This document shows positions 3,062 through 32,380 of a stretch of DNA of 36,365 bases, one piece after another; positions within the stretch are counted from its first letter, which is position 1; each line of letters opens with the position of its first letter. The position numbers were made by a program, and so were the translations under genes. Source of the stretch: Bacteroidota bacterium (GTDB taxonomy: Bacteria; Bacteroidota; Ignavibacteria; Kapaibacteriales; UBA2268). Under the pieces are notes generated by a model. It had not been told where the DNA came from and did no database searches. It was given only the letters and a program-made list of their open reading frames with translations. The stretch covers positions 1 to 36,365 of the forward strand of contig JAJRTW010000091.1 of the NCBI GenBank assembly GCA_024278075.1, read 5' to 3'.

Positions 3062-5065
3062 TCACTGCACAATCAGCCGTTGGACTACGTTGTCTCCTTT
3101 GTCAGTTGATAACGAAAGCAGATAAACCCCCGGAACTAATTTATCGGCGAATCCGGTTTTGATTTCTTGCATCCCCGACGGAAGGCTTAATGCCTTTAAG
3201 GTTTCCATGTACTGTCCGCTCATTTTATGGAGCCTGATTTCAACCCTGCATTTTTCAATAAGCTTGAATTTGAGGTTGATATAATTGCCGGGATTCGGAT
3301 TGGGATAAATAACAAAATCCTTAATGCCATTTGAAGACAGGCGGCACAAATCGAAGATTGATTGCTCATTGTCGAGAGCTGAGCACGCTTCTTCGGGTTT
3401 CATCTCGCCATTCTCAATACTTGCTATGATACTCAGTTCTTGTCTCAGGCGCTTTTGGTAACGCTCCGGCAGCTTCGATAGGAATTCCTCAGTCGGATAG
3501 AACCACAGGACTATTTCGGCATAATTGTAATCGAAACTCTTTTCTATTTTTTCATATTTAGCACTGTCCTTAGCAATTGTCACAGAGTGTTCTAATTCAG
3601 TTGGTGTTTCATAATCCGGGAATTGATCTCCCATTTTCACCAAAACCGGTATCAGTTTATCGATTTTCGTGCGGTTGATTAATTGGAAATTGCCATTTGA
3701 ATTGATTCCACGCCATTTTCTACTAATCTTTTGGCCGTCAACCGATGACGGACTATGAAATAGAGGGCTGTTCTTGGTGGGTGAATATATAACTTTGTGA
3801 ACTATATCGCCAACAAAAAATGAATAGTTCATTGCAACGGGAGCAATCGGATTGTAATCATTATAACTCCAGCCGTCATATTCAGTCAATGTAGATTTGG
3901 AGTGATAAACAAGTTTAGTATTCAGCGGTACTATCTCTGTGTAGCGTGCCAACACCGGCTTTGAGTTCATATCGTATCCTTTTTGCTCTAATTTCTGCTC
4001 TTTTTTTGTGCCGATATTTGACAGCAATTCTTCATAATCAAAGACGACGCCGACATCATATTTCAAGACCGTCTTTTGAAGCTCCGAGAGCCTTGTCCCG
4101 TCTGAAGTTCTGATACTCAACCTTTCAAGTTCTTCCGGCGTTAATTGCAATAATTCAGTGCCTTTGAATTCGTCTGCAATTTGTTTGGATATTATGGAAT
4201 ACATCCTGATTTGGGACATTGCGACTGTATCTTTAAGATCGACAGCTTTTTGCATTGTACGTCGGTAGCATATCTCAAATTCCTCCATCCGGTTTTCTCC
4301 GGCCAGCGATTGCAGCCGCAAAAGAGAATATCTAATGCCATCTTTGCGCTCTTTTAAATTGTCAGTGATTTGCTTCAATAAAGTATAAAGATGCACTGAG
4401 CTTTTTACTTCCGTACCCAATTTATCAGTTTTTGTGATCGTAATTGTTCTTTTCTTCATGTCATATTTAACACTCTTAACTACCAATGAATCATCAGAAG
4501 CTACAGAATCTAATTTTCTGGAAAAAGTATAAGTGGGTCCCGGAACGTCGTTTCGCAATCTATCGAAAGCATCACTGGCCTGCTTGCCCATCAGAACTGT
4601 TGTTGTTTCTGCTTTCTGCTGCGTGTTTGATGAATCCTTAGTTTCCTCTTTTTCCTCCACTTTATCGCTTCCATCGCCATTGTCATTATTTTGATATGCG
4701 ATGCTCTTACTCTTAGTGCTTGATTCTATGTTATTCTCTTGTATTTCAGTATTATTTGATTGATTATCTGATGTTATATTTTCTTCTGCAACGGAATTAT
4801 CACTGATTGTGAACAAAGTGATAACTGCTATTGTAAATGCTGATGCTAATATAGCCATAGTGACTCTGCCTCCGGTGGATGCCGCAAATTCTCGGGCATT
4901 CCTTGTTAAATGATTCAACATATTTGATTTAGGTTGATCTATATAACCGCCGCCTTTGCCCATCAACTGCCGGAGCTGGGTTTCATTGAAGAACGGCTGC
5001 GGGTTATTTGCCTTTTTCGCTTGTTCGAAATATTCGTTTTGTGTCTTTTTCATTATTCTTTTCAT
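3062..5065 (-). CDS. Single-pass membrane protein with T9SS sorting domain, putative sigma-factor partner
   Basis: No characterised family is recognised. Visible parts of this 667-residue protein are a charged N-terminal stretch of about 68 residues without a signal peptide, containing PFFNETQLRQLMGKGGG; one membrane segment at about 69-88 (MAILASAFTIAVITLFTI); an Asn/Ser/Glu-rich linker to about 150; a long soluble region with acidic and basic stretches; and a C-terminal module from about 590 (FVIYPNPNPGNYINLKF ... GVYLLSL) typical of T9SS type A sorting domains. It lies 259 bp behind the ECF sigma gene on the same strand. Cytoplasmic head plus one membrane segment is the layout of anti-sigma factors, so that role is inferred. 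A sorting domain on a membrane-anchored protein is odd. ATG at 5053 is an alternative start. Confidence 0.7.
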   Translation of the reverse strand: MKRIMKKTQNEYFEQAKKANNPQPFFNETQLRQLMGKGGGYIDQPKSNMLNHLTRNAREFAASTGGRVTMAILASAFTIAVITLFTISDNSVAEENITSDNQSNNTEIQENNIESSTKSKSIAYQNNDNGDGSDKVEEKEETKDSSNTQQKAETTTVLMGKQASDAFDRLRNDVPGPTYTFSRKLDSVASDDSLVVKSVKYDMKKRTITITKTDKLGTEVKSSVHLYTLLKQITDNLKERKDGIRYSLLRLQSLAGENRMEEFEICYRRTMQKAVDLKDTVAMSQIRMYSIISKQIADEFKGTELLQLTPEELERLSIRTSDGTRLSELQKTVLKYDVGVVFDYEELLSNIGTKKEQKLEQKGYDMNSKPVLARYTEIVPLNTKLVYHSKSTLTEYDGWSYNDYNPIAPVAMNYSFFVGDIVHKVIYSPTKNSPLFHSPSSVDGQKISRKWRGINSNGNFQLINRTKIDKLIPVLVKMGDQFPDYETPTELEHSVTIAKDSAKYEKIEKSFDYNYAEIVLWFYPTEEFLSKLPERYQKRLRQELSIIASIENGEMKPEEACSALDNEQSIFDLCRLSSNGIKDFVIYPNPNPGNYINLKFKLIEKCRVEIRLHKMSGQYMETLKALSLPSGMQEIKTGFADKLVPGVYLLSLSTDKGDNVVQRLIVQ

Positions 5066-5136
5066 ATTATATTAAACAATAACCACAAACGACAGGGACA
5101 TTGATTTTTGAATTAACCCGAACATTTAACACCTTT

Positions 5137-5250
5137 GTAGGGGCAGGTTCATAACCTGCCCGTTTGATCTGTAACCTGCCCGTCCAGTGAGTAACCTGCA
5201 TACCAATCGCTTGTATTATCACAACGGGATGGTTTGGAACCATCCCCTAC
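5137..5250. repeat. Two-hairpin MITE-like element, copy 2
   Basis: The ends are GTAGGGG (5137-5143) and CCCCTAC (5244-5250), as in the element at 41-112. It holds the same 'aggtt..aacct' hairpin and the same 'ggtttggaacc' hairpin, the latter with compensating changes in both arms (gggatgg/ccatccc instead of gggacgg/ccgtccc). Its middle is longer and repeats 'taacctgc' three times. It lies between the sigma factor gene and its putative partner. Confidence 0.75.
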
Positions 5251-5327
5251 GGCAGTGGATATTTCATTGTCTGGCAGATACTTTTTAAGTGACCTAACAA
5301 CCATCCCCTACGGCAGTGGATATTTCA
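5238..5327. repeat. 29-bp direct repeat pair at the sigma gene 3' end
   Basis: The same 29 bases occur at 5238-5266 and 5299-5327. The first copy overlaps the right end of the palindromic element. The last three bases of the second copy (tca) are the complement of the TGA stop codon of the sigma factor gene. The duplication therefore sets where that reading frame ends. Confidence 0.85.
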
Positions 5328-5894
5328 CAAAGAATTCAGTTCAGCAGCAGCTTTCGTTTTGCTGCCTGCTCCAAGAAGAACGGCCAATTTCTTCTTGCCC
5401 CTCAGGATACGCATCTTCACGCTCGAAAGCGAAGCGTCCTGGATTGTGCATATCTCTTTGTGCGGCATACCAAAAATATCAAAGAGAATTATCGCCTCTC
5501 GCTGCTTGCCGGGCAGTTTGTCCAATGCTGAATAGAGTATATGAATATCGGCGGCAACGTCCGGCGGGATTGAATTGCAGTACAGTTCGTCAACGTCCTG
5601 CTTGTCGTCGGCCCTGAAGCGTACAAACGCCCTTTGCCGTTTGCTATAGACCCTGCTGGCGATAGTAAAAAGAAAACTCAGGAATGCACCGTCCTCTTTC
5701 AGGCTGCCGAAACTTTCGAAGGCGATCATAATAGTTTCACCGGCAACGTCTTTAGCTTCCTCGCGGTTCCTTGTCATAGCAAGGGTATATCTTTCGAGGC
5801 TGCTTGCGACTGGTTTCAGAAGTTTCAGGAACTTATCCTGCTTTCTTTTTTTCAGCATCGGGTCTTTACCGTTTATGTTTTTTCCATTGTCCAT
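5325..5894 (-). CDS. ECF-type RNA polymerase sigma factor
   Basis: This 189-residue protein has the two-domain layout of extracytoplasmic-function sigma factors. Region 2 spans about 25-95 (core binding and -10 recognition, with AKDVAGETIMIAFESFGSL and FLFTIASRVYSKRQRA). Region 4 spans about 117-172 (ALDKLPGKQREAIILFDIFG followed by the helix-turn-helix EICTIQDASLSSVKMRILRG) and contacts the -35 element. It would direct transcription of a small regulon in response to an envelope cue. The downstream same-strand gene encodes a one-pass membrane protein and is the likely partner. The intervening 259 bp is filled with repeats. The last residues after about 172 are not conserved in the family. Confidence 0.9.
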   Translation of the reverse strand: MDNGKNINGKDPMLKKRKQDKFLKLLKPVASSLERYTLAMTRNREEAKDVAGETIMIAFESFGSLKEDGAFLSFLFTIASRVYSKRQRAFVRFRADDKQDVDELYCNSIPPDVAADIHILYSALDKLPGKQREAIILFDIFGMPHKEICTIQDASLSSVKMRILRGKKKLAVLLGAGSKTKAAAELNSL

Positions 5895-5987
5895 TCAGGC
5901 AGTAAGTGGAGTATTTGTTGAAAAAAGTCGCATTTATTTTAGAATTAAGGGATAGATATATACGAAATTAATAGCTGTTAGTTATCG

Positions 5988-6037: not shown

Positions 6038-6117
6038 TTCAATTGCCACGTGCTTTAGCTCGTGGAAATAAGAATTAGCAGAAAACGGTTCAATTGCCAT
6101 GTGCTTTAGCTCGTGGA
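6038..6117. repeat. Paired 29-bp 'ccacgtgctttagctcgtgg' hairpin repeats
   Basis: Two copies lie at 6038-6066 and 6089-6117, differing at one base. Each contains CCACG-tgctttagct-CGTGG, which can fold into a hairpin with one internal mismatch. Reverse-complement copies occur at 15817-15838 and (shorter) 18251-18267, so this is a dispersed family in the genome. Confidence 0.8.
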
Positions 6118-6395
6118 TGATGATTAGCTTTTTCTTTTCCCCGCAAGCCAAGCATTCTCATTTTTCTATTCGGAATCTACATAACCGGCAGCAACTACAA
6201 ATCAATTATTCCCACATTCGATTACCTCTCATCCTTTGAGATACTTGCATAGCTTGCCACGATCAACAAATTTGAAGAACTCACCGGCTGCGGCAATCAT
6301 TTCTTTGAATATAACATTATATTTCCTTAATTTTGAATCCTTATCATTGTCAATTTTATGATATTTAATAAATAGAAAACCATATTTAATTATAA

Positions 6396-18370: not shown

Positions 18371-21300
18371 TTATTTGGCCAAAATGACCTCGCGGATAGC
18401 AGTGTCAACACCAGCGTTTATTCTGATGTAGTAGACTCCGGTTGTTAGTCCCGATCCGCTCAGCGACAATGTGTGTACGCCGGATGAGAACATTTCACCG
18501 TTAGCAATAACCGCTACTCTGACGCCTGCCTGATTGAATACTTCAGCATAAATCTGAACATCTGACGGCAGTGTGAACTCTATGTTCGTCTCGTCATTGA
18601 ACGGATTCGGATACGGGTCGCCAACATAGAATGTGAATTCGCCGCCGGTTGTAACGCTGGTATTACCATCGATAGTGAATATCGGCGAACGGCTGTATTC
18701 CATGTCGGGGTCGTTATTCCAAAGCGCCCTTAGCTGTGCAATTTCAGTGTATGGGATGTTCGGCACTGTCCAGGAATATGATCCTTTAAGTGCATTCAGA
18801 CCATTGTCTATTGGCAGCCACAGGTTCCCGCCGTCGGGAGTAAACTCGAGGTCGAATAGCTTTACATTATTATCGGTTATCCAACGCACTGCTGCTTTTG
18901 CATTAATCATAAGCAATGAGTTCTCACGAGGAGTGGTTAATGTTAACGCCCCGGCAAGGATTCTGAACGGTTCGGAAACGGCCAGGTATTCGCCGGTGTT
19001 AATGTCAATCATTGCAATAACTGCATTCTTCGTATTGATGAATTGCGGAACTGTCCATTGAACCTGCCCGCTTTGTGAATTAACATCGGCAGTTACTTTC
19101 ACCCACCCGTCTTCGCCGTTTGGCGAGAATTCGAATCGAACTGTTGCCGGGTCGTCGGCGCTCCATTGGATTACATCAACAGTGCCGCCGGTATAAATCG
19201 GATCCGAAGAAGACGGGCGAATTATATAGTTGTTCGCCGGCAGTATTGAGAACAGGTTGTCGGTACGGTCGATTTCAGTGCCGGTTACGGCATCAACCAA
19301 ACGCACCAGGCATTCCGCAGAACTAATCATAGGAGCATAGAGGTTGAATTCGGTTTCGAATACACTAACCGGGCCTTCGCTTAGAACTTCCCATGTGGTT
19401 CCGCCGTCTGCCGATAGCTCAATATTAACAGGAATATCTTCAGTCGGCCTTGTCCATGATACCGTATAGTATCTGCCGGCCCGCCAGATTTCTCCGCCAT
19501 TCGGAGATAATATCATAGCAGTTTCGACAGTATTGAGTGATTTAATTACGTCGAAGATTCCGTCTTTGGTAACATTCAGGCCGTTTGTCCTTAATATGGC
19601 AGTTGCCTGGTTCCATTCGAATGCGATTTCCTGGTTGCTGTCGCGGACTTTAAACCTTAGAGTCCCCAGCAGAGTTTTTTCGTAAGGAACATTATTGCCA
19701 AGTTTGCGTGTATAGCCATCATAATCAATCTCAATCGACCTAACGTTTGGCAACGGATTATTAGTCTGTGATTGAGGCGCTGAGTATACCTTGCCGATAT
19801 AGCCCAATGACGGCAGGTTGCTCCACGGATTATCCTCGATTCTATACAGAGTCTCATAAATCAATACATTCGGGTCATAAGTTACGGCAAATGTACAGTT
19901 GCCCGGGGCAAACTCCTGGCCTTCGTTTTGGATGTACATTGTAAGCTCAACGAATTGATCATCTTCGACTAATGCTGTTTCAGCTGTAACCCTGTAGACG
20001 ATTCCACCGCTTTGAATAACATTGCCTTTATTATTTGACGGATTCAGAGCTTCGCTGATTTTTCCGTTTTCGTCGAAGGCTTTGGCTTCTTGGTTCATTA
20101 TTTCAGAAAGGGCTATATCCTGCCTTGAAACAACTTCATACGGATTGTAAGGCGCTTCGATTGATAATGCAGGGAATATAGCAGCAATTGAAGAAGTTCT
20201 GTTATTGTTTTTATCAACTATGTCGCGGTCGATACTATTAATAATACCGTCGCCGGTTACATCTGACGAAAGTGTGGTTCCACCATTATCAATACGAACC
20301 TGCACTCTGTCGGCGGCGTTGATCTTGCTGTCTTTAACCACATCGCCCGCCACCATCGCCGGAAGTGCCACACCAGCCGTAGCCGAAGTTGAAGTCTGGC
20401 CGTCATTATATGCAAGCCCTGTTGCACCATAATTAGTTAAGCCGGCATCAGTTTCGGAATATCCATAGGCCGTATATGATGTTCCGAAAGTCGGCGGGTC
20501 GGTCAGGGAATTGGCTTCGGTAATTACATCAGTTGTTGTACCGGTCCAGTTCTGGAAGTCCCATCCCGAAGATATTGCCCAAGTGCTTATATCATCGCCG
20601 TCAAATTTGAACGGTGCCGCATATCTTGACATAATTGGCAAATGGTTTTGGTGTTCAACCACAACGAAATAGCTGCCGTCATCAATTGCCGTAAATACGA
20701 ATGGTGCATTTGCAAATTCAGAGCCATTGGTTCCGCGCGGGATTGGGTTCAGCGGATCGGTTCCGCTATAGCCCTGGCTCGATTCTGCTTGTGCCTGCTG
20801 AGTGCTTGGGGCGCCATTGATGTCGTCATATAGTGTTACACGCAGGCCGTTGGCTGTATAAGTTGTGCCAAGCGTTCCGGAAATACCGGTGACTGCTCCC
20901 TGATGATAACCTTCGAGCAGGACGCGAACGGTGAAGTTCGACGGAGGTGTTATTGTGAATAACGGGCCTTCCGAGCGAAGGTTGGAATATGAGCCAAAGC
21001 TGACGGGTGCGGCCGAATTAATCGTTGCCCTGCCGCTTAATCTCAGTTTGCCATTCCTTAGCGTTGCGCTAATGGAGCTGCGAGGAGGAGTTCCGTCGTT
21101 GCCGTTTGCAAGGCTGACATCAAGGTCGCCGCCAAATTGTGACAACGGCGGTACGGTCCCCTGGAATTTATATGTGCTTGTAAGAGCTGGGACAAATGAA
21201 TTCGGATCGTATGTGGGATCTTCCTCTTCACTCGATGTAAAGTTAAATGGGGTAAATACCACATCGCCGCCACCCTTAGTTGAGTACTCAAGGTCCGAAT

Positions 21301-24300
21301 TCTGGTTGGTCGCATCATTGCCGCCGGTGAAGCCGTCACGGTCATAATCGAATCCCACCCAGCGGACGAGCAAGTCCGTCGTAGTATTCGGAACCTGCTG
21401 GTCGAATATCGGTTCAACTAATTTTACATAAGGTTCAACGCCCTGATAGCTTAGGCCATTATTTGCAATAATCTGTGCCTGCACGCTATCGGTCGATGAG
21501 AATGTGGAGAACGTACTGTTGTACGCTTTGTCGTAGGCGACGAACGAACCACCGTTCATATCAAAAGATGCCACCAGGTTTGTTTGGTATGCCGTGGTAA
21601 GATCTTCGGCGCGTACGGTCAATGCACCTCTGATGAAGTTAGTCAAATCCGTTGGTTCGGTTCCTGTGATTGACTGCCCTGCGGGGGCTCCGTTCCAGAA
21701 CCTGACGCCTTTGATTTCACCGATGAATGACAAAGCGCTGTCGGCTCCCTTCTCATAGGCAATATAAGTCGGGAATATATTTGTGCTGTTGACTGCCACA
21801 TCAGACCCTAATTGGTCTGTCAGGCTGCCCTCGTAATGGGGCGTGCCGTCTATATAGAATTTAACAGAGGAGCTGCCGGAGCCATTTGCAAGGTTTACAA
21901 ATACGCCCACATGAGTCCAGGTTGAATCCATTTCATCAACATTCGGCCCTATAATCGGGCGGGTAGTATCGCTTTTGGCCGATAGCACCGTGCCGGTTGA
22001 AGTTGTAATTTCAAATTCCAATTGGCCGGTTGACAATAATCGCAAAGCGTAATGCCCCGTGCCGGTTGTTGTATCTTTCTTGTTAATAATCGGGAAATAT
22101 CCTTCGTCAGATGTCGGGAAACGGTAAGGGCGAATCCATGCTTCCACAAATGCAGCGCCACCCGTCAGGTTCATTGTCGTGCCGCTCGGTACTACAATAA
22201 TCGACTCGCCTGTATTCTTTATTGAGAAATAAGGAGCCACTTTGAAAGTGCCGGTTGTAAAGGATATGTCCTGCTGAGAATTAGCATTCGTGCCGCGTAT
22301 TCTCATTTGTACATCTTTATTATAGACAGCCCCGGTCGCAGGGTCGACCGACTGCAATTCATTATAGTTGCCAATTGTTCCGGAATGCTTGTATGCTTCC
22401 CATAATACCTCTCCGTTGCCGCTTTCAACTTCTATATCGTCAAGAAGATCGCCTGGAGTGGTTTGGTCTATACAAACCGCCCATTGAGTCCCGCCATCAC
22501 GGCTGAATTCAACGACTAAGTCATCAGAAGTAGCGCTTGAGTTGTCGCCAACTCCATAGGCAGCCCATCTGATTGGGAAATAGCTGTCTTCCAAATTCGA
22601 CACACCGGAACCCGTTGCAGGGGATGTAAGCTTCACATGGCCCTGGTCCGGGCGATAGTTTAGCGATGTAACAGCCGTGGCTGTCAGGCTTGGTGAATCA
22701 TAAAGATAAATTGGGTTAGTTCCGTTCTGAACCGTTGCATTGGCAAGGTCTGTTGATGTACCTACCAGATCGTAGTAAATCTCGAGGGCAGACCTTATAT
22801 CGCTTGGCGGTGAAGTGGCAGGGTTGACAACGCCGGGAATATTTGTTCTGATTTGACGCTGAGTAAGAGCTTTTCTCCATACCCTTACTTCTTTTATGCC
22901 TGCATGCAGATAATCCGTTGCTGCAATACCGCCATTGGGATTAACACCAACCCATGCAGGATGTGATTTGGTATCCATTCTGATATTATTGGCATTAGTA
23001 TTCGTTTTGGTTGCCATTAATTCACCGTTTACATACAGCGAAACAACGTTGTTTGCAACTGTGGCGGCAATATGCACCCAGTTGCCCGGATGCGCCGAGT
23101 TTGCATTAATCGGCACGGCATCGCTGGTTGTTACAAGCGAATCCGGCGAAACAACGGTTGCCAGATATGGGGTGCTATTATCACCACGGCCTTCGATTTC
23201 GAGGCAGCGGAAGGCGGGGTATTTGCCTTGAGACAAATAAAGTATCCATGCGCCCTCTTCATTGGTGTCTGCCGGGCCGGGGCCAGTGGCAACCACACCT
23301 GGCTCTGCCGTAGTGTCCGATGGAATGCTGTTTAAGTTAACCCATGCTTCAACTGTTAATTGAGTAGCATTGCTGTATTCGTCCCTGGTTCTCATGTATG
23401 TCGTTGATCCGTCCAATTGAAGGAAGAATAATCTTGACAATACGAAAGAATTTTCGCTTTGCCCGCAAGGATTGCCAGTGGCTTGGGTTCTGTTGTCGAT
23501 GTCGGCTGTCCGGCCATCGGTATCTAACTGGCAGATCTGCAATAATGCCTGCTCGGAGCGCGGCGCAAAATACGGGTCGTCGTTCCAGATGAACCTAAGC
23601 ACGCCGCCATAATATGCAGCTACTACCGGCAATTGCGAACCGTCGCCCTGGGTGATAATATAACCACTGGTTTCTGATGAAGAGAATATAACTTCACCCG
23701 AATAATTATATGTCCACTGTGTGGTAGTTAAATCCGCATACTCTTCTCTTGCCTCGGCAATGCGAGCAACTTCAGCCGACCAGTTTGAGCCGTTGTCGGT
23801 TGAATAATTTACCGTATATGCCAAAACATTTGATCCGTATTCACTCCCGGCAGTTGGGTTGATTAAGCCACTACGTTCGAAATAAACCGGATATCCCGCT
23901 ACATTTAACGATGGATAAGATTTATTTCTGTTCACCGCTTCATTGGGGCCATTTGGGTTTAATATCGAAATCCCCCTAACGGTGAAGTCTGCCGTTGTAA
24001 CCAGGTTTGTTACGCTTTCCTTGTCGTTACCCGAGGCATCAAATACCCTGAGATCACCGATAAGAGTGGAAGTATTAATACCAATACCAGTATTGGTGGT
24101 GCCGGTAATCGAAGCATGATTGCGGATTGCAAATTTCAGCCTGCCAATCAGGCTTCCTCGCCCGGATGTGGAAGGCTGCACTCCCAGAGTTGAAGGAACA
24201 AGCGTCATAACAACATCGAGCTGATAAACGTAAATACCGGCGATATTGGCAGCCTGGGCCTTCATTGCACCATATCCGTTTGCATTATTAAATTCAGAGG

Positions 24301-24634
24301 CCAGTGCAACGTAAGGTGATGCAACATTCACATCATAATTAACTGAGTCTGAGACGGTAAAATCATAAGTGCTGGGATCGACCGGTGACAAATATGTTGT
24401 GTCGTATGTCACGGCAACAGAGGCGTTGCCAAGATTAGCAGCACTGGAATTTAATGATTTCATCCAAATTTCGACGCCTATTTCATCGCCCATACGGCGC
24501 TGGGTCAGCGATATTTCATAATCATCCTGCCCGAAAACGTCAGGGGCAAGCATGAAAAGAACCGCTACAAGAACCAGGAGCAGGCGCCCCCCCTGGCTTT
24601 CCCGTAATGCCTTCTTTGCTTTTTCGAAATTCAT
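18371..24634 (-). CDS. Giant secreted multi-domain T9SS cargo protein with LamG domains
   Basis: This 2087-residue protein starts at ATG 24634, seven bases after AAGGA; a TTG two codons earlier is less likely. A signal peptide (about 5-36, ends in DVFGQ) precedes a cohesin-like beta-sandwich (about 38-190). Two LamG/concanavalin-like domains follow, at about 400-620 (LTVEAWVNL ... WVHIAATV ... GIKEVRVWRKAL) and about 800-1010 (FVEAWIRPYRF ... WTHVGVFV ... GEIKGVRFWNG). Next come a dockerin-like pair (KDSKINAADRVQV, SDVTGDGIINSIDRDIV) at about 1420-1460, a second cohesin-like region (about 1520-1690), and three Ig-like modules starting SPNGGEIW. A T9SS type A sorting domain (DPYPNPFNDETNIEFTLP ... 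GVYYIRI) closes the protein. It is probably exported to the cell surface to bind glycans or proteins. It lies 96 bp behind the other giant gene and is likely cotranscribed. Confidence 0.9.
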   Translation of the reverse strand: MNFEKAKKALRESQGGRLLLVLVAVLFMLAPDVFGQDDYEISLTQRRMGDEIGVEIWMKSLNSSAANLGNASVAVTYDTTYLSPVDPSTYDFTVSDSVNYDVNVASPYVALASEFNNANGYGAMKAQAANIAGIYVYQLDVVMTLVPSTLGVQPSTSGRGSLIGRLKFAIRNHASITGTTNTGIGINTSTLIGDLRVFDASGNDKESVTNLVTTADFTVRGISILNPNGPNEAVNRNKSYPSLNVAGYPVYFERSGLINPTAGSEYGSNVLAYTVNYSTDNGSNWSAEVARIAEAREEYADLTTTQWTYNYSGEVIFSSSETSGYIITQGDGSQLPVVAAYYGGVLRFIWNDDPYFAPRSEQALLQICQLDTDGRTADIDNRTQATGNPCGQSENSFVLSRLFFLQLDGSTTYMRTRDEYSNATQLTVEAWVNLNSIPSDTTAEPGVVATGPGPADTNEEGAWILYLSQGKYPAFRCLEIEGRGDNSTPYLATVVSPDSLVTTSDAVPINANSAHPGNWVHIAATVANNVVSLYVNGELMATKTNTNANNIRMDTKSHPAWVGVNPNGGIAATDYLHAGIKEVRVWRKALTQRQIRTNIPGVVNPATSPPSDIRSALEIYYDLVGTSTDLANATVQNGTNPIYLYDSPSLTATAVTSLNYRPDQGHVKLTSPATGSGVSNLEDSYFPIRWAAYGVGDNSSATSDDLVVEFSRDGGTQWAVCIDQTTPGDLLDDIEVESGNGEVLWEAYKHSGTIGNYNELQSVDPATGAVYNKDVQMRIRGTNANSQQDISFTTGTFKVAPYFSIKNTGESIIVVPSGTTMNLTGGAAFVEAWIRPYRFPTSDEGYFPIINKKDTTTGTGHYALRLLSTGQLEFEITTSTGTVLSAKSDTTRPIIGPNVDEMDSTWTHVGVFVNLANGSGSSSVKFYIDGTPHYEGSLTDQLGSDVAVNSTNIFPTYIAYEKGADSALSFIGEIKGVRFWNGAPAGQSITGTEPTDLTNFIRGALTVRAEDLTTAYQTNLVASFDMNGGSFVAYDKAYNSTFSTFSSTDSVQAQIIANNGLSYQGVEPYVKLVEPIFDQQVPNTTTDLLVRWVGFDYDRDGFTGGNDATNQNSDLEYSTKGGGDVVFTPFNFTSSEEEDPTYDPNSFVPALTSTYKFQGTVPPLSQFGGDLDVSLANGNDGTPPRSSISATLRNGKLRLSGRATINSAAPVSFGSYSNLRSEGPLFTITPPSNFTVRVLLEGYHQGAVTGISGTLGTTYTANGLRVTLYDDINGAPSTQQAQAESSQGYSGTDPLNPIPRGTNGSEFANAPFVFTAIDDGSYFVVVEHQNHLPIMSRYAAPFKFDGDDISTWAISSGWDFQNWTGTTTDVITEANSLTDPPTFGTSYTAYGYSETDAGLTNYGATGLAYNDGQTSTSATAGVALPAMVAGDVVKDSKINAADRVQVRIDNGGTTLSSDVTGDGIINSIDRDIVDKNNNRTSSIAAIFPALSIEAPYNPYEVVSRQDIALSEIMNQEAKAFDENGKISEALNPSNNKGNVIQSGGIVYRVTAETALVEDDQFVELTMYIQNEGQEFAPGNCTFAVTYDPNVLIYETLYRIEDNPWSNLPSLGYIGKVYSAPQSQTNNPLPNVRSIEIDYDGYTRKLGNNVPYEKTLLGTLRFKVRDSNQEIAFEWNQATAILRTNGLNVTKDGIFDVIKSLNTVETAMILSPNGGEIWRAGRYYTVSWTRPTEDIPVNIELSADGGTTWEVLSEGPVSVFETEFNLYAPMISSAECLVRLVDAVTGTEIDRTDNLFSILPANNYIIRPSSSDPIYTGGTVDVIQWSADDPATVRFEFSPNGEDGWVKVTADVNSQSGQVQWTVPQFINTKNAVIAMIDINTGEYLAVSEPFRILAGALTLTTPRENSLLMINAKAAVRWITDNNVKLFDLEFTPDGGNLWLPIDNGLNALKGSYSWTVPNIPYTEIAQLRALWNNDPDMEYSRSPIFTIDGNTSVTTGGEFTFYVGDPYPNPFNDETNIEFTLPSDVQIYAEVFNQAGVRVAVIANGEMFSSGVHTLSLSGSGLTTGVYYIRINAGVDTAIREVILAK

Positions 24635-24696
24635 AATCAAATCCTTGATAGTGTTTATAATTTATTAGTTACTTTTTAAAATTTTAATTGGCTGCC

Positions 24697-24730: not shown

Positions 24731-27700
24731 TTAGTTTGCTGACAAAAATGGCGTCGCACTCGTGTTCACCTTAACGTTATAGGCCGTTGCACTGTATGCG
24801 TCGCTGTCTGTGCCATATATTCTAAGGATATACGGGCCGGACACTGTGGCATCATTGAATATTATCGTTTCGCTTGTTGTGCCTGTTGAAGCCGATGCCC
24901 GCATCAGTACCATTGTGGTTGAAGTTGTTCCGAGTGTCGCGTCATAAAGCTCCAACTCGTAATTGGCCGGAAGGCTGCTAAGATCAATCTTCAGGTGGTT
25001 CTTGCCCGTTGGCACACTGAATACGAAGTAATCCGATTCATCTGCCGCAGCAATTGCTCCGGATACATCAACATCAGTCAGAATGCTTGCTGCCGTAGCG
25101 GCTGTTTGGTGCGATCCGTAGGGATCCGCGCTGCCGGCGGAAGTAGTTATTGACATTGGATTGATGGTGGTTGCTGTCGTTACATAATTTATCAGCGTGC
25201 CGGTTCCGTCGTAATTAAATACCATTACATAGTATTTCTGTCCGGCTACCAAGCCCTGGACTGTTGTGGACGACACAACTCCGCTGCCATCGTAAACAAC
25301 GAATGATCCCGCCGCTGTCTGTCCTGTCCCCACATCGCCCGCATTTTCTATATTCGAAGCGGCTGTGTAGGCCACTCCGTCAACCGGTGAATCGGGAGGC
25401 AAGTCCGCACGCACAACGATTATTCTTCTCGAACCGTTGCCATTTACAACTGCGCTAATAACAAAGCTCGTTGAAGTAGCCGAGCCTAATGTTACCGTTT
25501 CGGCACCTACAGCCGGGGCCGCAGGGCGTACAATTATGTTGTTGGAAGCCGAGGATGAAGTTAATAATGCAGCACCGTCGGTGGCGGTAATGGTTTCAGT
25601 CAATGTGCCGGCCGCCAAAGTTAATGTGGGCGAAACAGTAACGAAATTCGTTCCGCTTGTAATCGTTCCGGTTCCTGTTGTCAGTACTGAAGTTCCACTG
25701 TTTGTCAGCACAACCGAAATATTACTTGTAGCATTGACAGGAATATTGTTGGCATCCTGCACCTGGATAGCCATGTCTACCGTACCGCCGGTTGTAATGG
25801 CAGAACTGTATGATCCGACAATCGCAAGGTGGTCGGGCGAGCCAACTGCCTTTACTGTCATCGTATTTCCGGTGAACGGAGCGTTTGTAGTATTTACGCT
25901 GGCAGGGCTTGTTAATGTAACATAGTTCTGGTCGTAAATCTGCATACTTATCGTTCCGTCGGTTGTGGCCGAATTCGATACATTGGCAGTTATCAAATAA
26001 TTTCTCGCACTGCTGAATGATTGTGCCGAAGAGAATGTGCTGAATGTAAGGTTGCCCTTTGCAGTTGAAGCAGTATAAGTACCGGTTGCAATACTTTCAG
26101 CGGCGTCCGGATAGTCATTCTCATTGGCGTCGTACCATAATTTATAGTTGGTGAAATCAGATGCCGAAGCGCCACCGCCAAATGTTACATGGGCTGTAAC
26201 GCCTGTGAATGCAACAGTATTGCTGTTGTCAGGCGTTATAGCAAACCCGTAGATTGGCTGATTCCTTACGTTTTTGCCCAGGTTGCCCGCCGCCACATTG
26301 GAAGAAGACACAGTGGCCGTCGAAGTTTCGAAGCTATATGTAAAGCCGGTAATTGTGGTAGCTGCGGTAGTGCCGTCAGTCTCCATATACCTTGGGCCGG
26401 CATTTGAGCCTACCACGGTAGAATGACTTATTGTTGCGGTCATAGCTGTATTCGCACCATTTACGCTTCCGTCTACGTCAACAACTATATAGTAGTATTT
26501 GTAAGAACCTGCATTCAAGCCCTGAGCGTCAGCGGTAAAATCAAATGATACGGTAGTGCCCGAAACCGTCGGTGTCATTGTAATAGCAGTTTCGCTTCCG
26601 GCAGTATATAAGTTATCATTTGATCTGAATAATCTATAGTTCGAATAAACCCCAGATGGTGACGAACTGAATATTACGTCAAAGTTTGTCATCAAGCTTG
26701 CATTTGCCGTAGCGCTTGCCCTGAAGCCAAGAATTGCAATATCTTCTGCTCCGGCCACCAACGGACTTGTTGAAATTCCGTTTGGATTCTCATCGAACAT
26801 CATGCCGGCCCGGAAGCTGAAAGGCGTTCCTGTTTCCGAGGATGTTCCCATAACACCGTTGTTGATGGCCAGGTCGCCGTGAACAAATGATGGCGTTATT
26901 GCTCCGGTTGTTGATATTACAGTTGAAGCCACATTCACCGTCAGGAATATATTGAGCGGAACCCCGGGCGTTACCGTTAAAGCATTGGATGCTATATCGA
27001 ATGCAACATAGTTGTCGGCAGCCGCACCACCGGTTTCCGTATCTATTGTTATCTCGGTATTGTCCGAAGTTGTGCTGAAATCATTATCAGTAGAGCTCCA
27101 GAGTCTGTAGCCTGAGAATTGAGTTGGCGTAGCCAATGCTGTCAGGTCGATCTGGAGATCTGTTACATCCACAGTCCCGGCGGATGAAGTGAATTGCAAA
27201 CCATAGATTGCCATATCATCTCTGCCAGCAGTTAACGGGCTGGTTTCTACACCTTTGGTAAGCTGGGTAGTAGTAATTATCGAAGGCACTCCGGCTGTCC
27301 ACCATTCTTGCTCGCCGGTATACTCATCAATGCCTGTCTTGCGGAACAGATTGTTTGTGGCGTCTTTTGAGAAGCCCGACTCATATATCCACGGCCCGGC
27401 GGCAGCGTCTGCATAGAGCAACTGCAAGTCCGCTTCTGTTAATAATCCGATTTCCGTATCATCATAAAGCATTGTTAAAGTGGAATTCAAGCTTCCATTT
27501 GCCGTAGTGATTGAATAATACCTTGTAATCCCTGTTGAGCTGCCCGGTTCGCGAGCTATATGGTAACGCTGAACTGTTGTCGCTCCGGGATCGAGGGCTG
27601 TGGTCAGTTTAGCTCCCAACCCGCCAATGTTATAATTAGTCAGTGTGGCCCCGGGGGTGTAGGCAACAATTGTTACATTACCGGTGCTTGTTGATGGGCC

Positions 27701-30700
27701 TGAATTCAACACTGTATTGCCAGGAGTTTCGCTAAGCTTTGCTGTTGCTGAATTATTTATTGTTAATATATTATTGCCATTTAGGTCAATGTCTCCATTC
27801 TGGAGCCTTAATGTACCAAAGATTTTAACTTCGTCTATTGCTGCATCTCCGGCCAAAAGCAATCCGTTCGTATTGTTCAATGTTGCATTGAAGAAGTGGA
27901 TGTGGCCTGTCGAGCTATTGGTAATAGTTTGCTGGTTCGACCCTACAAACCATACTTTAGTTGTTGTGCCGGTAAGGCCAAATTCAAATGTACCGGTTCC
28001 CGTTGAGCTTATATCGCCAAATATCTGGAAATCTCTGTCATCTGTACTTGTTATTGTAGCAGTCGAAATAGCCATGCTATTGAATATAACCGCCGAAGCA
28101 GTTGTAGTTGCAAGCGAAATGTCCGGGTTCGTTCCAACGGCATCGGTGAATGTGACAGTGCCGCCGCCGGAAGCATCAAACTGGCCGAGGGCGCCTACAA
28201 TAAGCTGGTCTGAAATCGTGAAATTAGAGGAGGTACTCAATATATTGCTTGCCGTACTGGCAACACTTAATTTACTGAATGTTAATGTGCCGGTGTTGGT
28301 CAATGTTTTAGAAGTACCATCAATAAAGTTAATTGTTCCTAAATCATTTGCATCAAAACTGCCGCTAACATCCATATCGCCGGATATATCAACCACGAAA
28401 TCGCCCACCTGGGTAATCGTGCCGGTAATCGTCAAATTATCAAATGTTTGATTATTATCGGCCAATGTAGTCAGGTTGGCAGTACCGCTAAGAGTGATAG
28501 TATTGCTTGTGGCAGTAAATACCGAAGCTGCATTGCCCATAGTGAAATCACCGGCAACTGTAAAGTCCGAACTTGAAGTAGCTCCGGTAGCGCCTGCATT
28601 AAATGTAAGATTATTCAATGTCAGAACGCCTGAATTGACAATAGATGCAGTGGCACCATTGAAGGCTATCGTACCGGTTCCGGATATGAACGATCCGGCG
28701 CTGGTAACGGTTAATGCATCTTCAACCCTAACTATTTGATTGCCCGTCTGAGTAACGGTACCTGTGATTGTCAAATCGTCGAACAGAATTCTGTTGTCTG
28801 CCGCACCTACGGTTATCGATCCGGCCGCACCGTCGAATGTTATCGTCGATCCTGCCGAGGCATCGAACAATGCCAAAGCATCAACATCCAGCGTTCCGCC
28901 GATTGTCATAAGGCCTAAAACGTCGGTTGCAACTGCTGTGGCAGCCAGCGTTAGATTATTCAAATCCAAAGTGCCGGTTGCGGTAACGGTAATGTCCGCA
29001 TCTGCACCGTTCAAAGTAACCGTTCCGGTGGTTTGAGTTAAAGAACCCAGGGCGGCAACTGCTATTGCATCTCCGCCGGTTCCGTCCAATGTGAGGTCTG
29101 TAGTAAGCTGTGCCGCTGTGGCAGTGGCGGCGATGGCAAGATTATACAACCTTAATATGCCAGCCCCTGCACCACTCGATATGGTGCTGGCCGCACCACT
29201 TAATGTTACCGTGCCGGACGTAGCGGCAGCAGTCACAAGAGCGCCGTTTTTCGTCAGATCGCCCGTCATTGCGAATGTTTCCGCAAAAGCAAAAGTTGCA
29301 GCGGGATTGTCAAGTGTCAGGTTTGCGATGGCATTAATATTGCCGCCGCCATCTTCTCCTGTTCCCGTTGTTGCACCACCGGTGAATCCTAAAGCAGCAG
29401 CCGCTCCGGTGAAGATATAGTTAGTTTCGGCATCGACTGAAATTGTAGTACTATTGACTGAGCCTGCAACACCTCCAGCATCCGTTGTGCTAAAAGTAGC
29501 TCCGGAAGCAAGCGTTAAAGTGCCCGTGCCGGTTACGGAATTTGTAGCGGCAATATTAAGTTGGCCGCCCGAGGTTACTGTTGCCGAACCGCCGCCGGTT
29601 ACCGTAAAGCCATTGGTCAATGTAACGATAGCGCCACTTGATATGGACATAGCACCGGTATTAAAATCTAAACTTGCAGCTGCATCAGTTGTTATCGTAG
29701 CCGCAGTGCCAGTCATGGTCATTGTTCCGGCACTTTGCGTCCACACGCCGCCGGAGCGGGTTAAATCATTTGCTATAGTCAAATCAACACCACATGCAAT
29801 ATTGCCTGCATAAGTAACATCATAGAATGTCTTCGTACCGCCGCCGGCCAATGTGGCTGTGCCAGCAAAATCAAATGATGTACCTGTATTTCCGGTGAAT
29901 GTACCTACTATTGTTACAGTGGCTGCGGTTGCTATGTTAATATCAGCGGCCAATGATGTATTAAGGTCAATTCCGTTCACCGTTGTGGTCAATCCGGCTG
30001 CGGAAGCTGTTAACGAATTGCCTGTGGATACATTCATATCATAGAACGTTACGGCTCCGCCATCATCTGTTCTATATAATGTTGATGTTCCGCCGAACGT
30101 AACTGTGTTAGTAGCCGCAGCAAAATTAAATGTACCGGCATCGTCCACAATCAAATCGCCGGTTATCGTCATCGTCGCACCTGTGGTCGGTGCTAAATTA
30201 TTTGCGCCTGTTTTATTCAAATTATTAAATGTAAAACCTGTGCCGTCCGGCGAATCCATAGAGGCACCGGGAGTATAGGTAACAATGTTATTCGTATTTA
30301 CGAACGTACCGGCAGTCCTGGTTAGAAAGCCGGCTATTGTATAATCTGATGAAGTAGTCACTGTTCCGTTAATATCGAGGCCATTTAATTGCACTGATGA
30401 AGTAGATGCGAATGTCATCGAATTCGTCGTAGCGCCCGACCCCATTTGCAATAGGTTATTCACAGCATGGTAAGGCAAGGTAACAACGCTTGCTCCGGTT
30501 ACACTAAAATCACTAATAACCTGCATCGTGCCGGCATAGGTAGCGCCCAATGAAACAATCGCAGGGCTTAATGCCGCAGTGGCGCCGCCTGTGATAGTCA
30601 AATCCGTTACCGCATTAACAAGATTGGCAGTGGTAGACCCGGTTCCGACAATTGCCGCTCCAAGGTCAAGGCCAAGAGTTGTTTGTGTATTAACTCCATA

Positions 30701-32380
30701 GAATTCCCAGTTTATAGCACTTGTAGCCGTTAATTCGTTTAATAAATAACCCGTTAGAGTTCCGGCCAAACCGCCAGTATTGGAAATCCTAACCGTTCCG
30801 GCTGTTAATGTCAATTTAGGTGTTGCCGTACCTGTAATTGTGTAAGTCACACAGTCCAGAGTACCGGTGGTTAATGTTATGTTACCGCCGGCACCCAAAG
30901 CAATATTACTGCCAAGGGCAATGCTTGCGGCAGCATCATTGATTGTCAAATTTGATCCGGCCGGGACTGTTAAAGTACCGGCTGAATTGGTAATCGTACC
31001 CGTACCGGTAAATATAATATCATTTCCACTCATGGTAAATGTGCCACCTGTGCCACTTTGAGTGAACGACCCGGTCAGGGTAATATCACCACCGAGAGTA
31101 ATTGTTAATGCCGTATTTGCAATTACCAGGTTATTCAACGTCATTGTCCCGCCGCTGGCATTCAATCCAACTGCCGTCGTACCGTCCATTGTAACAGTAC
31201 CGGATGTTTGAATCAAACTGCCACCGGTAACATCCAACGCACCGGTCATAGACCATGATTCGGTAGATGTCGTTGCAGCGGTAACGGTCATATTGGATAA
31301 GGATGTAACTCCGGCATCTGCAAACCCGGTAGTACCGCCTTCGAAAACGTAACTTGCGCCTGTGCTAAATACTCTCGTGCCGGTTAGGTCAATGGCACCG
31401 TCAACACCATTGGCATTATTTAATGTTAATACCTGGCCGGTTGAAAGGTTAAAATCACCAGTGCCCGAGATGGAAAATGCGCCAACATCAAGATCATTAT
31501 TTACTGTAAACGTCCCGTCGAAGCCCGTCATGCTTGATAACAATGTAGTGGTTCCGCCAACTATAAGCTCGGTTCCCGAACCAAATGTTAGCGTACCGGT
31601 AGCCGTTATCTGGCCGGCTCCGCTGCCGTCACTAATAGTAACAATACCGGCAGCAGTAGTAATTGCCATCGCACCGGTTGATTCAATAATAAGATCGTCG
31701 GTGACGGTGAATTCCGAACTTACAGCAATGCTTGCTCCGTCGACTACCGTCAGGTTCTCGAACTCACAAGCCGAAGAGTTCGAAAGCGTTTTCTGAGCAG
31801 TATTATCAAAATAGATAATCGTACCGGTACCGGAGTTCCAGTCGCCAAGTCCGTTAACAGTAAAATTGCCATAAACGTAGAAGTTGTCTGCGTTGCCGTC
31901 CGGAGTAACCATCGTTCCGGCAATAACAACATCATACATAGCTAACATTACATCGAAGGCCTTTGCTCCGGTACCATTATCATTAATTATAGTATTATTA
32001 CCATCAATACCATAGAAAGTCCAGTTCAGCCTGCCCGTGCCATTGCTATAATTCACAAGGCCTCCGGCATCAACCCCGAAGCTTCCGTCCACCCCGATAT
32101 ATCTTGTACCAACATCGGGCTGTAAAATCCCACCGCTATTCACCGTAAGGTCGTAACAACGGGCAGGAGTGCTCGAAGTATTCGTTACGGTAACGGTGTG
32201 TCCACTTGCTATAACGGCATCATCAGTGGCAGTCGGGGCAACGCCCCCGACCCATGTGGTACCATCGCTCCAGTTACCGCTCTGGGTTGAGGTAACTTGC
32301 GCCGTTGCATCCAAATTCGAAAGCACAAGCAAAAAGGCAAGTACTATTCCGAAAAAGGTTAATCGGTTTTTAGCTTTCAT
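24731..32380 (-). CDS. Giant secreted beta-repeat surface protein (2549 aa)
   Basis: A signal peptide (MKAKNRLTFFGIVLAFLLVLSNLDATAQ) is followed by a G8-like opener (SGNWSDGTTWVGGVAPTATDDAVI). About 1500 residues of repeats of roughly 70 residues come next, with the pattern F.NLT / T...FTV.GDLT / GTVTFSG, very rich in Thr, Gly, Ala and Ser. This is the composition of a right-handed beta-helix adhesin. Then come a module at about 1555-1670, three tandem beta-sandwich modules at about 1710, 1870 and 2027 (TSPLTAG, TSPLVAG, SSNVAAG openers), an invasin-like Ig domain (about 2180-2275), an FN3-like domain (about 2285-2410) and a PPC-type domain (about 2427-2548). No T9SS sorting domain is seen at the end. 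AGGA lies six bases before the ATG. It is the first gene of the pair; an adhesive role is inferred. Confidence 0.88.
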   Translation of the reverse strand: MKAKNRLTFFGIVLAFLLVLSNLDATAQVTSTQSGNWSDGTTWVGGVAPTATDDAVIASGHTVTVTNTSSTPARCYDLTVNSGGILQPDVGTRYIGVDGSFGVDAGGLVNYSNGTGRLNWTFYGIDGNNTIINDNGTGAKAFDVMLAMYDVVIAGTMVTPDGNADNFYVYGNFTVNGLGDWNSGTGTIIYFDNTAQKTLSNSSACEFENLTVVDGASIAVSSEFTVTDDLIIESTGAMAITTAAGIVTISDGSGAGQITATGTLTFGSGTELIVGGTTTLLSSMTGFDGTFTVNNDLDVGAFSISGTGDFNLSTGQVLTLNNANGVDGAIDLTGTRVFSTGASYVFEGGTTGFADAGVTSLSNMTVTAATTSTESWSMTGALDVTGGSLIQTSGTVTMDGTTAVGLNASGGTMTLNNLVIANTALTITLGGDITLTGSFTQSGTGGTFTMSGNDIIFTGTGTITNSAGTLTVPAGSNLTINDAAASIALGSNIALGAGGNITLTTGTLDCVTYTITGTATPKLTLTAGTVRISNTGGLAGTLTGYLLNELTATSAINWEFYGVNTQTTLGLDLGAAIVGTGSTTANLVNAVTDLTITGGATAALSPAIVSLGATYAGTMQVISDFSVTGASVVTLPYHAVNNLLQMGSGATTNSMTFASTSSVQLNGLDINGTVTTSSDYTIAGFLTRTAGTFVNTNNIVTYTPGASMDSPDGTGFTFNNLNKTGANNLAPTTGATMTITGDLIVDDAGTFNFAAATNTVTFGGTSTLYRTDDGGAVTFYDMNVSTGNSLTASAAGLTTTVNGIDLNTSLAADINIATAATVTIVGTFTGNTGTSFDFAGTATLAGGGTKTFYDVTYAGNIACGVDLTIANDLTRSGGVWTQSAGTMTMTGTAATITTDAAASLDFNTGAMSISSGAIVTLTNGFTVTGGGSATVTSGGQLNIAATNSVTGTGTLTLASGATFSTTDAGGVAGSVNSTTISVDAETNYIFTGAAAALGFTGGATTGTGEDGGGNINAIANLTLDNPAATFAFAETFAMTGDLTKNGALVTAAATSGTVTLSGAASTISSGAGAGILRLYNLAIAATATAAQLTTDLTLDGTGGDAIAVAALGSLTQTTGTVTLNGADADITVTATGTLDLNNLTLAATAVATDVLGLMTIGGTLDVDALALFDASAGSTITFDGAAGSITVGAADNRILFDDLTITGTVTQTGNQIVRVEDALTVTSAGSFISGTGTIAFNGATASIVNSGVLTLNNLTFNAGATGATSSSDFTVAGDFTMGNAASVFTATSNTITLSGTANLTTLADNNQTFDNLTITGTITQVGDFVVDISGDMDVSGSFDANDLGTINFIDGTSKTLTNTGTLTFSKLSVASTASNILSTSSNFTISDQLIVGALGQFDASGGGTVTFTDAVGTNPDISLATTTASAVIFNSMAISTATITSTDDRDFQIFGDISSTGTGTFEFGLTGTTTKVWFVGSNQQTITNSSTGHIHFFNATLNNTNGLLLAGDAAIDEVKIFGTLRLQNGDIDLNGNNILTINNSATAKLSETPGNTVLNSGPSTSTGNVTIVAYTPGATLTNYNIGGLGAKLTTALDPGATTVQRYHIAREPGSSTGITRYYSITTANGSLNSTLTMLYDDTEIGLLTEADLQLLYADAAAGPWIYESGFSKDATNNLFRKTGIDEYTGEQEWWTAGVPSIITTTQLTKGVETSPLTAGRDDMAIYGLQFTSSAGTVDVTDLQIDLTALATPTQFSGYRLWSSTDNDFSTTSDNTEITIDTETGGAAADNYVAFDIASNALTVTPGVPLNIFLTVNVASTVISTTGAITPSFVHGDLAINNGVMGTSSETGTPFSFRAGMMFDENPNGISTSPLVAGAEDIAILGFRASATANASLMTNFDVIFSSSPSGVYSNYRLFRSNDNLYTAGSETAITMTPTVSGTTVSFDFTADAQGLNAGSYKYYYIVVDVDGSVNGANTAMTATISHSTVVGSNAGPRYMETDGTTAATTITGFTYSFETSTATVSSSNVAAGNLGKNVRNQPIYGFAITPDNSNTVAFTGVTAHVTFGGGASASDFTNYKLWYDANENDYPDAAESIATGTYTASTAKGNLTFSTFSSAQSFSSARNYLITANVSNSATTDGTISMQIYDQNYVTLTSPASVNTTNAPFTGNTMTVKAVGSPDHLAIVGSYSSAITTGGTVDMAIQVQDANNIPVNATSNISVVLTNSGTSVLTTGTGTITSGTNFVTVSPTLTLAAGTLTETITATDGAALLTSSSASNNIIVRPAAPAVGAETVTLGSATSTSFVISAVVNGNGSRRIIVVRADLPPDSPVDGVAYTAASNIENAGDVGTGQTAAGSFVVYDGSGVVSSTTVQGLVAGQKYYVMVFNYDGTGTLINYVTTATTINPMSITTSAGSADPYGSHQTAATAASILTDVDVSGAIAAADESDYFVFSVPTGKNHLKIDLSSLPANYELELYDATLGTTSTTMVLMRASASTGTTSETIIFNDATVSGPYILRIYGTDSDAYSATAYNVKVNTSATPFLSAN

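Follow-up and report, generated by a model that had tools for sequence, protein, structure and literature searches.

In FecR/FecA-type signalling, the anti-sigma factor is contacted by a separate TonB-dependent receptor. The dual membrane-spanning anti-sigma factors (Dma) consist of a head, an anchor, a disordered tether, and an outer-membrane beta-barrel, and one of them, Dma3, carries its own sigma domain (PMC13088901). The sigma factors of the Dma family are of group ECF21. In Porphyromonas gingivalis, PorA, a protein with a T9SS sorting domain (CTD), influences the ECF sigma factor SigP (PMC7712824). Made with a signal peptide, PorA is a free surface protein and has been proposed to act via the two-component system PorXY (PMC7712824). 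The present locus bears on how Bacteroidota signal to the genome from the outer membrane or beyond, and on whether they sense T9SS output.

The window analysed here is a whole stretch of 36,365 nt, contig JAJRTW010000091.1 of assembly GCA_024278075.1, from a Bacteroidota bacterium (Ignavibacteria; Kapaibacteriales; UBA2268). It contains an ECF sigma factor gene and, downstream on the same strand, the gene of a putative trans-envelope anti-sigma factor. The features of the locus are listed below.

5902-5931, minus strand: promoter-like motif GCGACTTTTT-N13-CACTTAC; two-block model score 16.7 (99th percentile of shuffles, 5.9)
5325-5894, minus strand: ECF sigma factor, 189 aa, identified by Pfam/NCBIfam and the family sigma profile
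5066-5324, minus strand: intergenic stretch, largely multicopy repeats, absent or short in relatives
3062-5065, minus strand: 667-aa partner of the sigma factor, putatively a trans-envelope anti-sigma factor; translation probably begins at residue 5 (nt 5053)
4862-5053, minus strand: predicted cytoplasmic head, residues 5-68, with the motif LxxYFxxAR...E (alignment) and two short helices predicted by AlphaFold2
4805-4861, minus strand: predicted transmembrane segment, residues 69-87, hydropathy 2.15, with positive-inside bias family-wide
4493-4804, minus strand: predicted disordered linker, residues 88-191, AlphaFold2 pLDDT <50 over 89-191
3551-4492, minus strand: variable extracytoplasmic middle part, with a conserved LxLxxxELxxLGI-like motif near residues 306-318 (alignment, AlphaFold2)
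3311-3538, minus strand: pre-CTD block LWYxPTxEFIxxLPERY...C...C, residues 510-585, conserved in the alignment, pLDDT ~90-96 over most of its length
3065-3310, minus strand: T9SS type A sorting domain (CTD), residues 586-667 (TIGR04183), with 7 beta strands predicted at high confidence by AlphaFold2

The partner resembles the Dma proteins in its putative sigma-binding head at the N-terminus, one predicted inner-membrane helix, a long disordered tether, a C-terminal module that would engage the outer membrane, and a neighbouring ECF sigma gene. Unlike them, it ends in a T9SS CTD with a conserved block before it and not in a beta-barrel. Its family is found in Ignavibacteria/Kapabacteria, and its sister loci do bear barrel-like ends. 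One member (locus L087) has the sigma factor fused to the partner, as in Dma3. The initial annotation knew of no characterised system of this form. This statement needs amending, since the plan itself is shared by Dma, with a beta-barrel at its end (PMC13088901). Searches of open-access literature found no account of a membrane anti-sigma factor that carries a sorting domain. As in the PorA-PorXY-SigP route, a CTD protein would affect an ECF sigma factor, but PorA is not a membrane partner encoded with its sigma factor. The likeness to FecR/FecA is that a membrane anti-sigma factor would receive an outer-membrane signal; the difference is that the outer-membrane module of the window family would be part of the anti-sigma factor itself. 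No FecR domain was reported in family members by a Pfam scan. The canonical C-terminal sorting domain is that of T9SS type A cargo (TIGR04183), whereas the window partner has a cytoplasmic head and an internal membrane segment and no N-terminal signal peptide.

The adjacency of an ECF sigma gene to a partner with a T9SS sorting domain, which the initial annotation had read from the letters, is confirmed by profile searches. Pfam identifies both sigma regions (Sigma70_r4_2, E=5.5e-15; r2, E=1.9e-5), and the family sigma profile, one row of which is the window copy itself, matches at E=4.8e-68. NCBIfam TIGR04183 matches residues 586-667 of the partner at E=6.7e-7 and 29.2 bits (curated cut-off 23); the Pfam model PF18962 did not report the window copy of the CTD. 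The last 150 residues, made up of the pre-CTD block and the seven-stranded CTD, have AlphaFold2 block pLDDT values of mostly 84-98. Outside the CTD, the pre-CTD block is the best-conserved extracytoplasmic stretch in the family alignment. A Foldseek search of the partner against the PDB returned no specific relative, with PorU at rank 41.

The anti-sigma topology proposed at the outset is likewise borne out as a prediction. Hydropathy identifies a single hydrophobic segment in the partner (residues 69-87), and the head is conserved. Among 60 family members, the mean number of K+R per 15 residues is 3.0 before the hydrophobic segment and 1.1 after it, so that hydropathy and the positive-inside bias together predict an N-in, single-pass protein with a cytoplasmic head. 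The head had been given as ~68 residues. Its presence holds, but the family-invariant M5 makes residue 5 (nt 5053) the probable start and the head ~64 residues long. Across the 60 members, the head measures 38-119 residues, with a median of ~50.

Homologues were searched in 100 relatives with the partner only, chiefly its C-terminal part, and the matches align mainly over the last 160 residues. In the first batch, 60 loci were fetched, giving 61 distinct homologues with the window copy. An ECF sigma gene lies directly upstream on the same strand in all 61, one of them being the fusion. The genes mostly overlap by 4 nt or are separated by up to ~60 nt, and hydropathy gives nearly all of the partners just one hydrophobic segment, at about residues 40-100. 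The overlap of the L070 partner with its sigma gene is due to the choice of start. In the window, the gap is 259 nt, an unusual length for this family, and its sequence corresponds to short multicopy repeats, with 66 repeat matches within the genome. The gap repeats include GAAATATCCACTGCCGTAGGGGATGGTT (two copies), and parts of them match >60 places genome-wide. In L087, sigma factor and partner share one 840-aa frame, a natural fusion for which an assembly frameshift is possible.

A second batch held more distant homologues; of the 18 anchored ones, 17 adjoin a sigma gene, and the sigma gene of the 18th (L162) lies ~1 kb upstream. With these two counts, 61/61 and 17/18, the head does co-occur with ECF sigma genes, as the initial annotation had asked to be checked. 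It had also named sigma-unlinked homologues as a possible refutation. Two clear ones were found (L157 and L165); both are homologues of the exported part without head or anchor, their N-terminus is a signal peptide or resembles one, and neither has a sigma gene in its vicinity. Linkage to the sigma gene therefore tracks the head and not the exported part, as the idea predicts.

The genome of the window contains 133 TIGR04183 matches and 16 sigma region-4 matches, and the window pair is the sole adjacent pair. None of the other 132 sorting-domain matches lies beside a sigma gene, and the other ECF genes of the genome have partners without a CTD. Chance neighbourhood was rejected on these counts. 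Sigma factor and partner also co-diverge when compared with paralogues re-paired within genomes. The value is 0.302 for the sigma factor and the head (null 0.152 +/- 0.044; 0/500) and 0.566 for the sigma factor and the C-terminal part (null 0.294 +/- 0.046; 0/500), and linkage alone may account for part or all of this co-divergence.

The most conserved parts of the family alignment are the CTD and the block preceding it. Sorting-domain models match most of the 60 members (PF18962 in 58, TIGR04183 in 57), a PNP motif lies 76-82 residues from the C-terminus in all 60, and the CTD is always terminal. The extracytoplasmic part between linker and block is variable. Six members have TonB_C domains there, and L087 has a parvulin (PPIC) domain at residues 530-620; these domains suggest periplasmic work. 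At E<=1e-20, the C-terminal profile gives ~108 matches among the order's 123 genomes; they fall in 52 of these, with a maximum of six per genome. Among 396 genomes of the phylum, one family of the same class was the only group outside the order to give full-length matches. A contig scan with a subset of the alignment gave 17 loci with organism names, which are those of Ignavibacteria, Kapaibacterium, and Chlorobiota MAGs apart from a few records with other labels. All 100 relatives tested have the T9SS translocon SprA.

The sigma genes of the family share a promoter consensus, G(T/C/A)AACYTTTTT-N10/11-CACTTAC, and a genome search finds that the motif at 5902-5931 fits this pattern perfectly. 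The simpler pattern TTTT-N14-ACTT occurs in 20 of 67 upstream regions, against ~1 expected. A two-block model, fitted to the same upstream regions that it scored, exceeds the shuffled 99th percentile upstream of 57 of 65 non-redundant sigma genes, and the window copy is among the best. Pattern searches place the motif before further sigma genes outside the training set as well. Since the motif is shared across the family, window included, the sigma factor is likely to autoregulate from the 5902-5931 motif. The other genome-wide matches precede sigma genes and some secreted proteins or lipoproteins; they number ~25, against 10 for reversed-pattern controls, which is too few to define a regulon. 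As for sprA as a target of the sigma factor, no upstream motif above the range of random windows was found. At 6040-6130, upstream of the sigma gene, the window contains two near-identical copies of TCCACGAGCTAAAGCAC(A/G)TGGCAATTGA.

A search of the 123 genomes with the sigma profile listed 150 matches in 61 genomes, and 96 of these 150 have a CTD partner within 4 kb. Forty-four of the remaining sigma loci were fetched for inspection of their partners. Nearly all of them have a head-plus-anchor partner, and their C-terminal ends include 11 weaker CTDs, four degenerate CTD-like ends (L335, L338-L340), and 17 ends that look like outer-membrane beta-barrels and sit after a long low-complexity tether. 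The barrel assignment is based on the C-terminal signature (F in 14 and L in 2 of the 16 examined) and weak Pfam matches (E=0.03 in two partners); a profile search of these ends against the PDB and a search of NCBIfam returned nothing. When the heads of the barrel-like partners were compared with the head profile of the CTD partners, 15 of 16 scored above the 95th percentile of shuffles.

On the sigma tree, built with a quick method and containing many weak branches, the distribution of CTD and barrel-like ends needs 6 changes by parsimony, and at least two changes of the barrel label are forced by well supported branches. The majority state is CTD, with the barrels nested within it. As far as the sequences tell, the same sigma clade appears to alternate between CTD and barrel partners. 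Both types also occur in neighbouring families of the class, and sigma factors related more remotely are paired with ordinary small anti-sigma proteins. Head-plus-anchor partners with other ends were also observed. A transglycosylase (SLT) is found at L319:3193-4536 and a WD40 propeller at L325:760-2235, while the partners at L329:1875-4631 and L333:704-4129 have a repeat-rich part that is TPR-like by eye. The transglycosylase, WD40, and repeat-rich partners are possibly other sensor types. Since some partners of the clade have neither a CTD nor a barrel-like end, not every partner needs to reach the outer membrane.

On balance, we lean towards the window pair being an ECF sigma factor and an envelope-spanning anti-sigma factor, with the T9SS domain and the barrel as alternative means of outer-membrane engagement. 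The head would hold the sigma factor at the inner membrane, and the flexible linker would carry the remainder of the partner across the periplasm. The T9SS would then take the C-terminal CTD to the outer membrane or the surface, creating a tether from the cytoplasm to the outer membrane. Failed or lost engagement with the T9SS, proteolysis, or a ligand bound by the variable outer part could change the head and free the sigma factor, which would then boost expression of its operon from the conserved promoter. A barrel-like outer-membrane end, following the Dma plan, would take the place of the CTD in sister loci. Given these barrel-like ends, such a sensor could be anchored in two interchangeable ways, the T9SS providing one of them, and outer-membrane engagement is the simplest function common to both, which is why we prefer the reading of a trans-envelope anti-sigma factor that relies on the T9SS for its delivery. 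The pairing, topology, CTD, promoter motif, and exchange of C-terminal modules can be read from the sequences; we infer the binding of sigma by the head, the engagement of the T9SS by a still anchored protein, and what the signal is. An AlphaFold2 model of the L087 fusion gave a pTM of 0.35 and did not place the head confidently on the sigma factor; its alignment was thin because MAFFT misplaced the heads once many sigma rows were included.

A stricter proposal makes the anti-sigma factor a T9SS client while it is held in the inner membrane, with engagement or stalling of the CTD directly setting sigma activity, so that secretion status, which the initial annotation had suggested as a signal, would be read by a single envelope-spanning protein. 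We find this possible but doubtful. A point against the trans-envelope reading as a whole is that SprA might be blocked by a client still held in the inner membrane, and we know of no T9SS client that is so held. Were the reading correct, the partner would be, to our knowledge, the first T9SS client to stay anchored there. The family provides ~100 candidate proteins that would unite a sensor and a T9SS address tag in one molecule, and because tag and barrel-like end have been exchanged repeatedly within a single sigma clade, the trans-envelope anti-sigma idea can be tested.

The main rivals to a T9SS-delivered trans-envelope anti-sigma factor are cleavage before export and a CTD kept solely for periplasmic binding. 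Regulated proteolysis is common in ECF systems, and an ordinary membrane anti-sigma factor might be cut in the periplasm and its released outer part exported as T9SS cargo. The T9SS would then dispose of the fragment or deploy it and would stand outside the sensor. The signal-peptide versions of the exported part in L157 and L165 have a good CTD, so the exported module is viable as free cargo. By itself, however, such a route leaves the exchange between CTD and barrel-like ends in the same sigma clade unexplained, and we take it to be unlikely. A CTD that is never exported and acts as a plain periplasmic Ig-like domain would bind envelope or T9SS components and sense T9SS parts or cargo load. 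This agrees with the anchored topology, with the degenerate CTD-like ends in the clade, and with the periplasmic work suggested by TonB_C in six members and parvulin in L087. The match of the CTD to sorting-domain models in 57-58 of 60 members and its invariably terminal position argue against it and make it rather improbable.

Two further alternatives question the role of the partner itself. That the head matches no anti-sigma domain family in Pfam or NCBIfam would suit an activator or a co-transcribed surface protein, but fusion, co-divergence, a likely autoregulated operon, and a conserved short head are typical of sigma/anti-sigma pairs, and such a role for the partner seems very improbable. 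We give practically no credence to ordinary T9SS cargo with a misplaced start codon, in which the hydrophobic segment would be a signal peptide. A methionine does lie just inside the segment, at residue 70, but paralogues with a true signal peptide differ in appearance and lack a sigma gene. A misplaced start was rejected because the upstream head is conserved in 60/60 members, with an invariant start and the LxxYFxxAR motif.

Two minor observations concern neighbouring genes. The paralogues at L157:2896-6875 and L165:2811-6857 are each followed by a gene for a VIT-domain and DUF2135 protein, and about nine anchored partners (L085, L091, L094, L095, L149-L152, L164) also have a homologue of this protein encoded immediately downstream. 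This protein is a possible conserved surface partner of the ectodomain. Elsewhere in the window, two very large open frames lie on the minus strand at 18371-24640 (2089 aa) and 24731-32380 (2549 aa), the former of which ends in a T9SS CTD (TIGR04183 at 18386-18613).
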